A stretch of 26,546 nucleotides of DNA from a virus: the IMG/VR virus record IMGVR_UViG_3300048015_000029, positions 1 to 26,546 of that record. The stretch is one strand, 5' to 3'. Both the position numbers and the translations under genes were made by a program. The notes beneath the pieces were generated by a model that ran no database searches, was not told the origin of the DNA, and saw only the letters and a list, made by a program, of their open reading frames with translations. Positions 21,663-26,508 of the stretch are shown one piece after another. Numbering within the stretch: position 1 is the first letter of the stretch; each line of letters begins with the position of its first letter.

Positions 21663-21714
21663 TAGCTTTTACGAAATTCATAGTTTATCGTAATTACGAA
21701 GTTTTTTTAAACAA
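21663..21714 (-). promoter_or_regulatory. Left operator pair and probable leftward early promoter
   Basis: The perfect palindrome TCGTAATTACGA lies at 21688-21699. A second, weaker site lies at 21663-21674 (minus strand TCGTAAAAGCTA). The same pair, in mirror orientation, is repeated at the right operator. A weak minus-strand promoter can be drawn (TTGTTT at 21714-21709, GATAAA at 21689-21684, 19-bp spacer), which the palindrome would cover. The repressor's own AATAAT -10 (21713-21718) is close to its ATG, so its message may be almost leaderless. Confidence 0.6.
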
Positions 21715-21724
21715 TAATAGAGTT

Positions 21725-22054
21725 ATGAATATTGGCCAAAGAATCCGCGAAGAACGTGAAGCTCAGGGAATGAAGCAAGGCGAGCTTGCTACCAAAGCTG
21801 GCATAGCACAAGCTACCCTATCCGAGTTAGAGAGCGGGAAAAACACAAGCAGTGTCTTTCTAGCAAGTATTGCGGATGTGCTCGGGGTAAATCCCAGATG
21901 GCTCGAAACCGGGAGGGGCACGAAACATGCCAACAAAGGATTTTCAAACACGGAATTGGCGCTCATTGCCGCTCACCGCGCAGCAACCGATGAGGGCCGT
22001 CTTTTCATAGAGATGGCTGCATCACAGGCACCCAAGCGTCCAGTCGAAGAATGA
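21725..22054 (+). CDS. Short XRE-family phage repressor
   Basis: 109 residues. Residues 5-60 are a typical XRE helix-turn-helix domain (IGQRIREEREAQGMKQGELA then TKAGIAQATLSELESGKN, with the recognition helix near 28-37). Residues 75-100 form a predicted amphipathic helix (NTELALIAAHRAATDEGRLF) likely used for oligomerisation. There is no LexA/CI-type peptidase domain, so RecA-stimulated self-cleavage is not expected. Operators of the TCGTAATTACGA type flank the gene at about 30 and 325 bp. The last 82 bp overlap a convergent, LexA-controlled ORF. As the only repressor-like gene beside divergent early operons, it is probably the lysogeny repressor. Confidence 0.8.
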   Translation: MNIGQRIREEREAQGMKQGELATKAGIAQATLSELESGKNTSSVFLASIADVLGVNPRWLETGRGTKHANKGFSNTELALIAAHRAATDEGRLFIEMAASQAPKRPVEE

Positions 22055-22176
22055 CGCGAAGCCTTCTTTGATGCTCGCTCACAAGACTTCGCGAGCGTAA
22101 GCAACTGCATTTGGAATGCAGGATTGCATTTCCTAAATGCTTTCAACAGTTCGATTTCATTGCAGTCTTCCATCAT
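21973..22176 (-). CDS. SOS-controlled small protein, antisense to the repressor end (candidate antirepressor)
   Basis: 67 residues from the ATG at 22176 (an adjacent ATG at 22173 is equally possible; GGGG lies just before). The first 35 residues form a clear helix (EDCNEIELLKAFRKCNPAFQ then MQLLTLAKSCERASKKA), and the rest, which overlaps the repressor gene, is basic and probably disordered. The helix follows the same pattern as the repressor's C-terminal helix (E-x-x-L-x-x-A-x-R ... A-x-S), so the two may bind each other. The only visible promoter is at 22263-22291, with a LexA box across it. Placement recalls phage 186 Tum and other LexA-controlled antirepressors, but I see no homology to them. 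The antirepressor role is inference. Confidence 0.5.
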   Translation of the reverse strand: MMEDCNEIELLKAFRKCNPAFQMQLLTLAKSCERASKKASRHSSTGRLGACDAAISMKRRPSSVAAR

Positions 22177-22184
22177 CCCCAATT

Positions 22185-22216
22185 CCACAAAAATTATCAA
22201 AAAATAACTTTTGTGG
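22185..22216 (-). promoter_or_regulatory. Long AT-rich inverted repeat before the SOS gene start
   Basis: CCACAAAAATTAT at 22185-22197 pairs with ATAACTTTTGTGG at 22204-22216; the one A-C mismatch becomes G-U in leftward RNA, giving a 13-bp stem with a 6-nt loop. It ends 4 bases before the GGGG that precedes the ATG, so it could control ribosome access. Confidence 0.7.
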
Positions 22217-22248
22217 TGCGGTCATACTGACATCGGGGAACAAAAGCA

Positions 22249-22291
22249 CTGTTTATACATACAGTATATCCAACTTTTTTCTGATCTGCAA
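22249..22291 (-). promoter_or_regulatory. LexA (SOS) box over a leftward promoter
   Basis: CTGT-TTATACAT-ACAG at 22249-22264 is a perfect CTGT-N8-ACAG LexA site with A/T-rich core and TA flank. A minus-strand promoter runs TTGCAG (22291-22286), 17 bp, TATACT (22268-22263). The box overlaps the -10 and the expected start point, so bound LexA should block it. Confidence 0.82.
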
Positions 22292-22378
22292 AAACTTTTC
22301 ATTGCCAGAAGATAATTTCTGATTATAAACATATCGACCTGCATCACAGGTTTATATTCCTCGCATTAATCATTAATT

Positions 22379-22428
22379 TCGTAATTACGATAATTTTAGT
22401 TGACATAAATTATCGTAAAAGCGAAAAT
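22379..22428 (+). promoter_or_regulatory. Rightward early promoter with two operators
   Basis: TTGACA at 22400-22405 with a 17-bp spacer and GAAAAT at 22423-22428 as the -10. A perfect TCGTAATTACGA palindrome lies at 22379-22390, upstream of the -35. A 9-of-12 match (TCGTAAAAGCGA) lies at 22413-22424, between -35 and -10. Binding of the repressor to the second site would block RNA polymerase. Confidence 0.75.
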
Positions 22429-22472
22429 ATTTTCAATGCAGCAAATTCATCGGCCTCGGCAGGGGAAACGAA

Positions 22473-22493
22473 ATGGCGCGGTATTCACGGTGA
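22473..22493 (+). CDS. Possible six-codon leader peptide
   Basis: ATG at 22473 with AGGGG 7 bases upstream opens a frame for six residues (MARYSR) and TGA at 22491-22493. A 7-bp hairpin (TGGCGCG at 22474-22480 with CGCGCCA at 22494-22500) covers it. The good ribosome-binding site makes translation plausible; the size makes this tentative. Confidence 0.35.
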   Translation: MARYSR

Positions 22494-22503
22494 CGCGCCA
22501 CCC

Positions 22504-22566
22504 ACTCTCAACTGATGAGCCAGGGTAAAGGCGAAACAGCGCGTAATTGCGCTGTCTTGAGTAAGT
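22504..22566 (+). ncRNA. Hammerhead ribozyme, type I topology, in the rightward early leader
   Basis: All conserved core parts are present in order. Stem I 5' strand ACT-CTCAA (22504-22511), core CTGATGA (22512-22518), stem II GCC/GGC with an 8-nt loop (22519-22532), core GAAA (22533-22536), stem III CAGCGC/GCGCTG with a 6-nt loop (22537-22554), then U-C (22555-22556) preceded by G, giving the standard GUC cleavage triplet. Stem I closes with TTGAG-(TA)-AGT (22557-22566), leaving a two-base bulge of the kind that makes loop contacts. The A15.1-U16.1 and G10.1-C11.1 pairs are kept. The expected cut is after 22556. It sits about 120 nt after the rightward promoter and 178 nt before the first gene. 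Confidence 0.9.
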
Positions 22567-22743
22567 CACGCTGCACTGTAGAAACCTCGCAGAGCCGGAT
22601 ACGTTAGCAGCGAACCGTTGGCAGTACGGGTTGCCGTGGAACTCGGCGACGAAACTGCCTGCTTAATCACTTAAGCACGCTGCAAGTCAGCGATCCGACC
22701 GCAGTCTCTATTTATCCATTCCATCCCCGAACAAAGGATCAAT
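22567..22743 (+). other. Structured leader between the ribozyme and the first gene
   Basis: About 175 bp without a gene. It contains a perfect hairpin at 22660-22677 (TGCTTAA-TCAC-TTAAGCA) and a direct repeat CACGCTGCA (22567-22575 and again at 22676-22684). It ends in an AAGGA ribosome-binding site for the GTG at 22744. After ribozyme cutting this would be the new 5' untranslated region. Confidence 0.5.
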
Positions 22744-23250
22744 GTGGAAACGAAAACGCACTGGAAACAACTGATAGACCCCCGCTTTATCGGCGCATAT
22801 GCACTTCCGAACGGGTCTGACATCACAGTCAAGATTGTCGATGTCAAGCTAGAAAATATCGTCATACAAGGCGGCAAGAAGGAAGACCATACGATTGCAT
22901 ATCTGCGCAATCAAAAGCCGTTAATCCTCAACATGACCAACTCAAAAACACTCCATCGATTGTATGGCCCATACATCGAAGATTGGATTGGCAAGGACAT
23001 CACTCTATTCGCGAGTGTGGCTCGTCTCGGAAATGAAGACGTGGAATGCATACGCATTCGCCCCACTGCCCCAAGCAAGGAGAGGCCACGCCTGTCCGAA
23101 GAGCGCTTCGCCAAAGCGCTAACACAGATCAAAGCGGGTAATTACAAGATCGAAAACATGAAGCAATTTGCACTAACGGCGCGGCAGCAGAAGCAACTGA
23201 AGGCCGTCCTTATCGAACTTACTTCCTTGAAAGAACCATCAGGAGAATGA
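22744..23250 (+). CDS. Conserved recombination-module protein, GTG start
   Basis: 168 residues from the GTG at 22744 (AAGGA 5 bases upstream). An ATG two bases earlier is in another frame. The pattern T-H-W-K-Q-L-I-D-P-R-F-I-G-A-Y, then SDITVKIVDVKLENIVIQGG, P-L-I-L-N-M-T-N-S-K-T and L-Y-G-P-Y-I-E-D-W-I-G-K is a conserved phage family regularly next to recombinase or nuclease genes. The C-terminal 50 residues are a separate helical region (RLSEERFAKALTQIKAGNYK). The stop overlaps the start of the nuclease gene. Likely role: DNA-binding accessory factor in recombination; molecular function not known to me. Confidence 0.65.
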   Translation: METKTHWKQLIDPRFIGAYALPNGSDITVKIVDVKLENIVIQGGKKEDHTIAYLRNQKPLILNMTNSKTLHRLYGPYIEDWIGKDITLFASVARLGNEDVECIRIRPTAPSKERPRLSEERFAKALTQIKAGNYKIENMKQFALTARQQKQLKAVLIELTSLKEPSGE

Positions 23251-23984
23251 ACTTGAATTTGAAAATCCGCTGCTCGTCTATCGGCAAGATCATGGCTGAG
23301 CCGAAGTCACTCGACACATCTTTGCTGCCAGAAGACTTGGCCGTCATTGCCCGCAAGACTAAGAAAACCGAAGAAGACAAAGCCCTGCTTGCACCCTACT
23401 TGGAACGAACGCTATCTGTTGGCGCAAAGACCTACATTGAAAAACTGGCGAAAGAGCATTACTACGACTATCTGGAAGTCATTACCGGCAAACAAATGGA
23501 TAAGGGCTTGATCGTCGAAAATCAATCAATCGAACTCTACAATTCGGTTTTCTTCACAAGTCACAAGAAGAACACCGAACGCCGCGAGAACGAATGGCTT
23601 TCCGGCGAGTGCGACATCATAGTCCCACGCGAAGAAGGCATTGACATCAAGTCCTCATGGTCATTGGCGACCTTCCCTGCAACAGCAGCGCAAGCACATG
23701 ATTCTGACTACGAATGGCAATGTCGTGGATACATGGCGCTGTGGGATGTGCCACGCTGGAGCGTAGCCTACTGTCTGGTCAATACGCCGGATGAACTCAT
23801 CAAATACGAGCAGTCTGACCTGCACTACGTTGACCATATTGACGCAACCAAGCGTGTCACGGTCGTCAAATATGAGCGCGACTTGGCCTTAGAAAATCGC
23901 ATCTACGTGAAGGTCGAAGCGGCGCGAAAGTACTTCTACCAAATCACCCAACAAATGATTTACGAGCATCAGGAGGCAGCGTAA
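23247..23984 (+). CDS. YqaJ/lambda-exonuclease-like recombination nuclease
   Basis: 245 residues with the PD-(D/E)XK core: E-N-Q-S-I-E-L-Y near residue 91, [20 protein letters not shown] with Asp123, Asp133 and Lys135, and a helix with a Gln/Arg pair ([12 protein letters not shown] near residue 155). These are the catalytic motifs of phage 5'-3' exonucleases and YqaJ-type recombinases, which make single-stranded tails for annealing. The ATG overlaps the previous stop (ATGA). The AGGAG is very close to this ATG, so the TTG two codons later is another possible start. SSB is encoded next. No RecT or Beta-type annealase is recognisable, unless the preceding gene fills that role. Confidence 0.78.
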
Positions 23985-24415
23985 TGGCGTCAGTCAATAA
24001 AGTCATCCTCGTTGGCCGAATTGGCAAAGACGTAGCGTTGCGCCACATGCCGAACGGCGACGCAGTGGCGAACGCTTCACTCGCGACTTCCGATTTCTGG
24101 ACAGATAAAACAACCAACGAGCGTCGCGAACTGACCGAATGGCATCGCATCACGCTCTACCGCAAGTTGGCCGAAATTGCCGGACAGTACGTCAAGAAGG
24201 GCACGCAAGTCTATTTTGAAGGCAAGCTCCAGACGCGCAAATGGAAGGACAAGGATGGCATCGAACGGTTAGTAACAGAAATAATTGCTGACACCATGCA
24301 AATGCTCGGAAGTTCGCTCTGTAATAGCAGGCAATGCGATAGCGACGGGACTGGATCGACGACTAACGCGACACCCGTTGCCGATCAGCACCGTGCTCAT
24401 GACATTCCTTTTTGA
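23984..24415 (+). CDS. ssb: Single-stranded DNA-binding protein
   Basis: 143 residues. The N-terminal OB fold is textbook: [34 protein letters not shown] and [20 protein letters not shown]. It is followed by a short variable linker and a C-terminal tip HDIPF, which is related to the bacterial DDDIPF tip but lacks two of the three acidic residues. GGAGG lies before the ATG, which overlaps the previous stop as TAATG. The protein coats single strands made by the nuclease and during replication. The weakened tip may alter contacts with host SSB partners. Confidence 0.93.
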
Positions 24416-24433
24416 CTTAGGTCGCAACAATTA

Positions 24434-24677
24434 ATGCCAATTACAAAGCAGCGGCTTGCAGAAGAGTTGCAATGCAGCGAACGACATATTGAGCGGCAAG
24501 TATGCCCAGGAATGCCGTATATCCCGTTTGGATCACGATCACATCGGCTGAAGCATTGAGCATATTCGGGAGTTGGCCGGGATCAACGTCGATCATCAGC
24601 AACTTCGACGCAGGGTGAAGGACAACATTTCATACGAAAGACGCAGGAAGCGCAAGAGCGTTGCGAACGAACTTTAA
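24434..24677 (+). pseudogene. Small HTH gene (excisionase/MerR-like) split by a frameshift
   Basis: Frame one: ATG at 24434, 41 codons, MPITKQRLAEELQCSERHIE then R-Q-V-C-P-G-M-P-Y-I-P-F-G-S, ending with TGA at 24557-24559. This is the common HTH pattern of small phage proteins in which L-A-E-x-L-x-x-S-x-R-x-I is followed by G-M-P-x-x-x-x-G. In the +1 frame the protein continues sensibly from 24555 (IEHIRELAGINVDHQQLRRR, then a basic tail) and stops at 24677. Skipping one base near 24551-24557 joins both halves into one protein of about 80 residues. It follows SSB by 18 bp. Damage or sequencing error are the simplest explanations. Confidence 0.6.
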
Positions 24678-24716
24678 TACAGGAAAGTGCGGGAATTTTA
24701 CCTTCAGACCAAAGCG

Positions 24717-24878
24717 ATGAAAACAGACAAGCCAAATATTGATCAAGAAACAATCAGCGAGAACGCAGCAGCAGACGAAGGCGCGGTTATCGGCAATACC
24801 AGTAGCCGTAGTATTCTGATTACGGAGCCTATTATTTTGACGCCGTTCGCGCGCAAGCTGGACACGTCGTCTATTTGA
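24717..24878 (+). CDS. Small hypothetical protein
   Basis: 53 residues from the ATG at 24717 (the open frame extends ten codons further up with no better start). Sequence KPNIDQETISENAAADEGAV then residues ending in RKLDTSSI: mostly acidic and disordered, with a short hydrophobic patch (ILITEPIILTPFA). No Shine-Dalgarno is obvious. It lies 26 bp before the excisionase gene. Coding status uncertain. Confidence 0.35.
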   Translation: MKTDKPNIDQETISENAAADEGAVIGNTSSRSILITEPIILTPFARKLDTSSI

Positions 24879-24904
24879 AGAATATTTAAGGTAAGGATGA
24901 TTGC

Positions 24905-25180
24905 ATGAACGTTGACCGCTCTCATGTATTGAAATTAGCTAGTGCATTATCGGAAATCATTGAGGCGTCCAACGATTCTCAACCAGCAATTCCGCAAGTA
25001 CATCGCTATGTGACGATTGCATTGGCATCGCAAATAACGGGTTTTACTGAAAATGCCATCAGGCGAAAGATTCAAGATGGTGTTTGGATCGAAGGCAGGC
25101 ATTGGAAACGCGCACCAGATGGGCGCATCGTAATAGACATGGAAGGGTATGCAAAGTGGGTAGAACGGGTAGCGGCGTAG
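24905..25180 (+). CDS. xis: Excisionase
   Basis: 91 residues. The C-terminal half is the excisionase pattern: RYVTIALASQITGFTENAIR, then R-K-I-Q-D-G-V-W-I-E-G-R-H-W and PDGRIVIDMEGYAKWVE, a winged-helix fold that bends att-site DNA and directs the integrase towards excision. AAGGA lies 8 bases before the ATG. The gene overlaps the integrase start by 25 bp, which fits joint expression. The N-terminal 30 residues are a variable helix. Confidence 0.85.
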   Translation: MNVDRSHVLKLASALSEIIEASNDSQPAIPQVHRYVTIALASQITGFTENAIRRKIQDGVWIEGRHWKRAPDGRIVIDMEGYAKWVERVAA

Positions 25181-26508
25181 AAGTTCGTAAGAGCAGCATT
25201 CGTATTACATTTATGTTTGAAGGGATTGAATGCAAGGAAAGGCTAACGGTTGACGGTCATGCAATGGCACCGACACCAGCGAATATCAACTATGCAAACA
25301 GATTAGCAGCAAAGATACGCAAAGCCATTGCTATCGGCACATTTAGCTTCGCGGAATACTTTCCTGACTCTCCACGCTGCGAAAAAGAGGCTTTAAACTC
25401 GTTTGGGGCGCTCGCTGATATGTGGTACGACTCGATCATGCAACTTACCGGTGCCACAATTAGCCAGTATGCAAGCGCTATCAGGTTTTGGAAAGAGACG
25501 TTCGGGGCTGACATGCCAATAGACAAGTTGACGCACAAACTTATCAAGTCAAAGATTGGGAAGCATAAGTGGCCCTCCGCAAAAACGCATAACAACTACC
25601 TGATCGCGTTACGCGGAATCTTTGCCTTGGAATATACCGGTACGCGATCCATCAGCAATCCCATGATCGGTATCGAGAACCTGAAGACGGTCAAGACGTT
25701 GCCCGACCCGCTTTCAGCCAAAGAGCGTGACTTAATTCTTGGGAGTATGGCGGAACACTGCGATCCACGCATATGGGCATACTTCAGTTTCGCGTTCTAT
25801 ACGGGAATGCGCCCCGAAGAATTGATTGCCTTGCGTTGGTCTGACATCGATTTTCAACACGGGGTAGCACGAGTGCAGCGTGTGCGAACCTTCAAAGGAT
25901 CGGTACGGGATGGGTCAAAGACGCATGCCGAGCGCGATGTCGATCTTGTGCCGCAGGCATTGGAGGCACTTCGCGTGATGAAAAAATACACGTTTATGAA
26001 GGGAACGGAATACGACATTTTTGAGCGCCCGGAATGGCACCCTAGCGAGGGCAGTAAGGGAGGGAAACCGACTGAAGCTGGCCCGTGGCACGACGAGCGA
26101 AGTCAACGTGATCAATATTGGAAACCTACGTTGCGACGACTCGGTATTCGCATGCGTCGCGCATACGCTACTCGGCACACATATTGTACGGTTGCGCTAA
26201 TGGGTGGCGTGAATCCGGCTTACATTGCCGACCAAGCAGGCCACTCTGTTAAAATGCTTTTGGAGAAATATGCCCGTTGGATGCCGGGCGAAGACGGAGG
26301 AAACCAGCGAAGGAAACTGGAGGCTGCAATGCAGAATTCCTCCCAAATTCCTCCCAACATAACCAAGATGCCCGATAACCAGTTGATTATAAAGGACGTT
26401 CTTGGTAGGCGCGATTGGACTCGAACCAACAACCCCCCGCCACGTGAGATCAATTGTCGGTGTATGCAGGTCGCTCTTTTTGGAATAAATAAAACCATTT
26501 GGATGTGA
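25156..26508 (+). CDS. int: Tyrosine integrase, C-terminus overlapping the attachment core
   Basis: 450 residues from the GTG at 25156, chosen because MGRTGSGVEVRKSSIRITF is the family's typical N-terminus (arm-binding domain). Catalytic residues: Arg219 (FYTGMRPEEL), Lys255 (GSKTHAERDV), Tyr337 and Arg340 (YATRHTYCT, where Tyr replaces the more common His, as in several phage integrases), His363 (AGHSVKML) and nucleophile Tyr372 (EKYARWMP). The core-binding domain lies at about 80-165. The final 50 residues run over a tRNA-derived att core and contain GRRDWTRTN, the telltale translation of an antisense tRNA 3' end. It follows and overlaps the excisionase gene. Confidence 0.93.
   Translation: MGRTGSGVEVRKSSIRITFMFEGIECKERLTVDGHAMAPTPANINYANRLAAKIRKAIAIGTFSFAEYFPDSPRCEKEALNSFGALADMWYDSIMQLTGATISQYASAIRFWKETFGADMPIDKLTHKLIKSKIGKHKWPSAKTHNNYLIALRGIFALEYTGTRSISNPMIGIENLKTVKTLPDPLSAKERDLILGSMAEHCDPRIWAYFSFAFYTGMRPEELIALRWSDIDFQHGVARVQRVRTFKGSVRDGSKTHAERDVDLVPQALEALRVMKKYTFMKGTEYDIFERPEWHPSEGSKGGKPTEAGPWHDERSQRDQYWKPTLRRLGIRMRRAYATRHTYCTVALMGGVNPAYIADQAGHSVKMLLEKYARWMPGEDGGNQRRKLEAAMQNSSQIPPNITKMPDNQLIIKDVLGRRDWTRTNNPPPREINCRCMQVALFGINKTIWM
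26403..26438 (-). other. attP core: 3' end of a host tRNA gene
   Basis: The minus strand reads through a perfect tRNA T-arm (GTTGG-TTCGAGT-CCAAT, with one G-U) and then CGCGCCT-A-CCA, i.e. 3' acceptor strand, discriminator and encoded CCA (TGG at 26403-26405 on the plus strand). No matching 5' half lies to the right. It overlaps the integrase C-terminus. From memory the tail resembles betaproteobacterial tRNA-Val(GAC); this is unverified. Confidence 0.8.

Follow-up and report, generated by a model that had tools for sequence, protein, structure and literature searches.

The question raised by this locus is whether a short segment in the 5′ leader of a phage early operon is a genuine self-cleaving ribozyme and, if so, what its cleavage would do to the message that carries it. 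The window analysed here is the whole of a 26.5-kb IMG/VR virus record (26,546 nucleotides), and all positions refer to it unless a contig is named. The evidence makes it probable that the element is a true hammerhead of type I, lying in the 5′ leader of the early operon of a temperate phage and most likely serving, through its predicted catalysis, as a constitutive RNA-processing or stability element. Its parts are as follows.

22507-22561, plus strand: type I hammerhead ribozyme, whole predicted motif from stem I to stem I (descriptor, covariance model R1, shuffles)
22507-22511, plus strand: 5′ strand of stem I, CUCAA, partner of UUGAG at 22557-22561 (sequence, pairing check)
22512-22518, plus strand: catalytic core CUGAUGA, C3 to A9, with G8 at 22517 (sequence)
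22519-22532, plus strand: stem II hairpin, GCC-AGGGUAAA-GGC (sequence, fold)
22533-22535, plus strand: core G12, A13 and A14 (sequence)
22536-22555, plus strand: stem III hairpin, 8 pairs including A15.1-U16.1, loop UAAU (sequence, fold)
22556, plus strand: C17, with predicted cleavage on its 3′ side; GUC triplet at 22554-22556 (hammerhead consensus position)
22557-22561, plus strand: 3′ strand of stem I, UUGAG (sequence, pairing check)

On the plus strand, 22507-22561 reads CUCAA-CUGAUGA-GCC-AGGGUAAA-GGC-GAA-ACAGCGCG-UAAU-UGCGCUGU-C-UUGAG. All consensus positions of the core (C3, U4, G5, A6, N7, G8 and A9; G12, A13 and A14; the A15.1-U16.1 pair; H17) are present at 22512-22518, 22533-22536 and 22555-22556, with A15.1-U16.1 formed by 22536 and 22555. 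The closing pairs 1.1-2.1, 10.1-11.1 and 15.1-16.1 are likewise intact, and the structure opens at stem I. An intact core with its core-closing pairs is the basis on which hammerhead candidates have been accepted or rejected (PMC3088659). Stem I consists of five uninterrupted pairs adjoining the core, and stem III of eight (22536-22543 with 22548-22555), the last of which is G-U. Stem II comprises just three pairs (22519-22521 with 22530-22532) and carries an 8-nt loop, AGGGUAAA; it is shorter than its counterparts in the phage hammerheads sampled, a comparison biased by scan patterns that favour longer stems. The first-pass annotation had claimed all conserved core elements in the right order, a type I topology and cleavage after 22556. 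The sequence, the descriptor and the pairing check bear out the first of these, the descriptor recovers the type I form on the transcribed strand, and the predicted cleavage site is correctly placed relative to the hammerhead consensus. The 6-bp stem III hairpin that it described is present with 8 pairs rather than 6, and the two-base bulge that it placed in stem I can be dispensed with, since the five unbroken CUCAA/UUGAG pairs suffice.

A descriptor demanding at least 3, 4 and 3 pairs in stems II, III and I, respectively, matches the window once, on the transcribed strand, and neither a type II nor a type III topology was found. This minimal descriptor also matches 68 sites in 19,272 dinucleotide-preserving shuffles of the window (512 Mb), and none of the 19,272 combines a stem III of at least 8 pairs with a stem I of at least 5. 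The covariance model R1 was built from 20 gap-free type I hammerheads on other IMG/VR contigs, with the window excluded; the training sites were picked by pairing, so that their 100% pairing is by construction. With filters off, R1 scores the window site at 33.1 bits (E 7.7e-10, a rough value from a short calibration) and reveals no further hammerhead in the window, the runner-up scoring 9.3 bits.

At gathering thresholds, Rfam, including RF00163 and its clan, gives no match in the window; the gathering score is a detection threshold and not a defining trait of hammerheads. The best sub-threshold match is the RAGATH-1-hammerhead (RF03152), with 24.0 of the 56.3 bits required, an E value of 0.073 and coverage of model positions 25-77 only. 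As a control, nine contigs, in each of which the descriptor finds between one and six clear phage type I hammerheads, likewise gave no gathering match, and those of smaller contigs reach about 25-30 bits with the hammerhead models, all under the cut-off. Consequently, the empty gathering search does not refute the assignment, because the clear phage hammerheads of the control contigs are missed as well. The covariance check suggested at first pass thus comes out empty with Rfam at these thresholds, as it does for the control hammerheads, and positive with R1. Furthermore, thresholds that miss clear phage type I hammerheads mean that standard annotation undercounts the hammerheads of phages.

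The surroundings of the element are summarized below.

21685-21701, plus strand: operator-like copy upstream of the repressor gene (repeat search)
21725-22054, plus strand: HTH repressor gene (Pfam HTH_3 and Phage_CI_repr; PHROG transcriptional repressors)
22376-22393, no strand assigned: operator-like palindrome, TTATCGTAATTACGAAA exact on the minus strand (repeat search)
22400-22428, plus strand: sigma-70-like promoter, TTGACA-17-GAAAAT (consensus match only)
22410-22426, plus strand: second operator-like copy, between the -35 and -10 hexamers (repeat search)
22557-22743, plus strand: predicted 187-nt 5′-OH leader on the operon message, structured (fold z-score -1.99)
22744-23250, plus strand: first operon gene, phrog_21613 (function not assigned), GTG start (PHROG)
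23247-23984, plus strand: exonuclease, phrog_5715 (PHROG)
23984-24415, plus strand: single-stranded-DNA-binding protein (PF00436, E 4.7e-36)
24905-25180, plus strand: excisionase (domain and PHROG searches)
25084-26508, plus strand: tyrosine integrase (domain and PHROG searches)

The promoter hexamers are TTGACA at 22400-22405 and GAAAAT at 22423-22428, and the hammerhead follows the -10-like hexamer at a distance of 79 nt. When up to 3 mismatches are allowed, the 17-bp TTATCGTAATTACGAAA gives 4 matches (21685, 22376/22377 and 22410) against 0.05 expected, a count in which the palindrome at 22376/22377 is included on both strands; two of the operator-like sites flank or overlap the promoter core. 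The promoter, these repeats and the gene content agree with the earlier placement of the hammerhead between a repressor-controlled promoter and the recombination, SSB, excision and integration operon. The repressor gene lies upstream on the same strand as the operon, and this co-directional arrangement ruled out a divergent immunity region of the lambda type. The leader at 22557-22743 shows no convincing match to any Rfam family. A 30-codon ORF (22436-22528), the possible leader peptide of the first-pass annotation, starts at the predicted transcription start and has its TAA stop inside hammerhead loop II; a Shine-Dalgarno sequence is lacking, and an open frame of this length is nothing unusual.

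Hammerheads are frequent in other phages. Two IMG/VR pattern scans gave at least 326 descriptor sites in at least 199 contigs among the matches listed, and 319 of these 326 listed sites are not inside a same-strand ORF of at least 120 aa. For 241 of the listed sites, a same-strand ORF starts within 400 nt, at a median distance of 113 nt (lower quartile 28 nt). The predicted cut in the L120/L349/L352 family falls directly before a Shine-Dalgarno sequence and start codon, and hammerheads near recombination genes occur on L056, L065, L125, L135 and L222. An early-region position is therefore uncommon but not unique among the matches listed. Clear type I hammerheads are very numerous on contigs L031-L254, with as many as six on a single contig piece, and those tested are all under the Rfam gathering thresholds. 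On L106, a 1.9-kb piece with a hammerhead at 1807 also holds a RAGATH-16 match (86 bits, over the cut-off) and a sub-threshold RAGATH-4 match, with sites at 479-549 and 727-853.

The nearest longer relative of the window by terminase is contig G001 (91% protein identity), with head-region DNA about 77-78% identical. G001 and the window are collinear as far as the NinB-gene region and once more at the excisionase and integrase; in the interval between these stretches, G001 carries different regulators and another recombination cassette and lacks a hammerhead. A comparison of window positions 21700-24900 with L347 shows the early module before excisionase and integrase replaced, in the nearest relative, by a different cassette, with a 144-aa HTH regulator, a 316-aa RecT-like-looking protein and a 235-aa exonuclease-like protein. 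Relatives of the first operon protein were located in 29 viral loci and 1 genome locus and those of the exonuclease in 10 loci, and no hammerhead was found in any of these loci. The search for relatives by the integrase protein confirmed none; that for similar leader DNA in phages and plasmids returned nothing convincing, and none was seen among the 353 loci compared. Genuine hammerheads can escape a model search run with default filters, as happened with that of L306, which the descriptor recovered, and absence from the model-only-searched parts of the relatives is consequently less certain. Judging from the sequences, the hammerhead-bearing early region thus appears so far only in the window among the backbone and cassette relatives compared, and conservation lends no support to the element, because none of these relatives was found with a hammerhead at this place. 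Two terminase relatives, L277 (6351-6404) and L306 (5680-5745), have another type I hammerhead, distinct from that of the window. It is encoded on the strand of the late genes and lies downstream of a tRNA-Gln gene (anticodon TTG), at a distance of about 245 nt in L277 and 410 nt in L306, where a link to tRNA or late-transcript processing is possible. Consequently, hammerheads occupy different places in this phage group, and these two do not represent conservation of the one in the window.

This distribution is consistent with a degenerate or inactive passenger that arrived together with the early cassette, or later, and has no present function, an explanation that also fits the short stem II and the competing fold that is more stable on the flanked RNA (see below). 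Decay, however, should have hit at least one of the core positions or closing pairs, all of which are intact, while stem III is an uninterrupted 8-bp helix and the R1 score lies far over background. A passenger is thus unlikely, although it survives better than the other alternatives.

In fold prediction, the hammerhead is the minimum-free-energy structure of the minimal 57 nt. Upon extension by 6-8 nt on each side (71 nt), an alternative built from ACCC/GGGU pairing and, across the core, CUCA/UGAG pairing is 4.2 kcal/mol more stable, tertiary contacts being ignored. The upstream partner is the following segment.

22500-22503, plus strand: ACCC, complementary to GGGU at 22523-22526 in loop II; tentative (complementarity search)

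This ACCC/GGGU complementarity lies on the 5′ side of stem I, and a match of this length has a chance of about 0.12-0.20. It is possible that it represents a tertiary contact between the stem I flank and loop II, or else a competing misfold. A pseudoknot is common in hammerheads and critical for high-speed activity (PMC3088659). Among phage hammerheads with a loop II of at least 6 nt, at least 4 pairs to the stem I 3′ flank are found in 14 of 33, versus 4.1 expected with loops swapped; the 3′-side loop II contact in the window comprises only 2 pairs. A perfect 7-bp hairpin, UGGCGCG/CGCGCCA (22474-22500), ends at the ACCC stretch and may insulate ribozyme folding.

The alternative fold could also act as a switch of hammerhead activity, in which folding, translation of the 30-codon ORF or a ligand decides between cutting and none. 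The predicted 4.2 kcal/mol advantage on the flanked RNA and the position of the TAA of ORF 22436-22528 within loop II are consistent with such a switch. On the other hand, ACCC/GGGU may just as well be a contact between stem I and loop II by which cleavage is accelerated, and phage hammerheads whose loop II is large show complementarity of this sort, although theirs involves the 3′ side of stem I; the leader ORF, moreover, lacks a Shine-Dalgarno sequence, and the match is short enough to arise at the frequency given above. A switch of this kind is somewhat less likely than a passenger. Its fuller form, in which loop II would pair with ACCC, perhaps under the control of ribosomes on the 30-codon ORF, and so set message cutting and with it the amount of recombination and excision proteins, is less probable still. 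Finally, a chance coincidence within a structured leader that has another role, such as antitermination or translational control, is very improbable: the downstream leader is structured by itself (z -1.99) and the Rfam gathering search is empty, but clear phage hammerheads also fall under the Rfam thresholds, the motif quality is reached by 0 of 19,272 shuffles (512 Mb), and the independent model R1 gives an E value of 7.7e-10.

Phage hammerheads are already known, and what is less usual here is the position in a repressor-controlled early leader. Active prophage hammerheads cleave in vitro within native polycistronic fragments of about 2 kb, a cloned prophage fragment self-cleaves in E. coli, and many bacterial hammerheads, including prophage ones, lie near integrase genes (PMC3088659, 2011). 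The role of prokaryotic hammerheads is an open question, with a link to phages noted (2017 review, PMC6155905). The window element shares with the bacterial and prophage type I hammerheads (PMC3088659; RF00163) the core consensus, topology, GUC triplet, phage location and a nearby integrase gene. In contrast to them, it is a single copy under the RF00163 gathering score, directly downstream of an operator-flanked promoter and separated from the start codon by a structured leader of 187 nt. It resembles the RAGATH-1-hammerhead (RF03152) in the order of the core, the short stem II and stem III, whereas its 24.0 bits are well under 56.3 and model positions 1-24 are unmatched. The HHphage of haloviruses HF1/HF2 is likewise a virus-genome hammerhead upstream of a DNA-metabolism gene, in that case a helicase, but it is a variant hammerhead 13 nt from the start codon in a lytic virus of halophilic archaea (PMC3088659). 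Among IMG/VR phages, the hammerheads of L056, L120, L277 and L306 are also type I, and that of L056 likewise lies directly upstream of a gene, in a same-strand block leading to a YqaJ-like exonuclease. Many of the others differ in that their predicted cuts fall about 25-45 nt before a start codon, among the matches listed, and those of L277 and L306 differ in lying downstream of tRNA-Gln.

For the preferred reading, a constitutive hammerhead, the following course can be proposed. Upon derepression or infection, transcription would start near 22435, and the ribozyme would fold as soon as 22561 is transcribed and cut itself after C22556, presumably also in vivo. A 5′ piece of about 120 nt, ending in a 2′,3′-cyclic phosphate, would be released, and the operon message would be left with a 5′-OH end and 187 nt of structured leader ahead of its GTG start at 22744. 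Such unregulated processing would strip the promoter-proximal segment from the message and likely serve to provide a defined 5′-OH end, with a stability that may be unlike that of a 5′-triphosphate message. A 5′-OH RNA end is no substrate for pyrophosphate removal. In enterobacteria it is a poor end for 5′-monophosphate-sensing decay, whereas in Bacillus a 5′-OH end produced by a ribozyme can accelerate decay; in the host of this phage, the effect on stability could go either way. Constitutive co-transcriptional cleavage giving a 5′-OH message is thus the most likely function, and translation control via the 30-codon ORF is only a possibility. The regulatory role in the lysis-lysogeny choice put forward at first pass finds no support. 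As a single hammerhead within the defined promoter-operator-leader of an inducible operon, the element offers a clean test bed for the effects of self-cleavage, which could show whether self-cleavage alters message level, translation or lysogeny.
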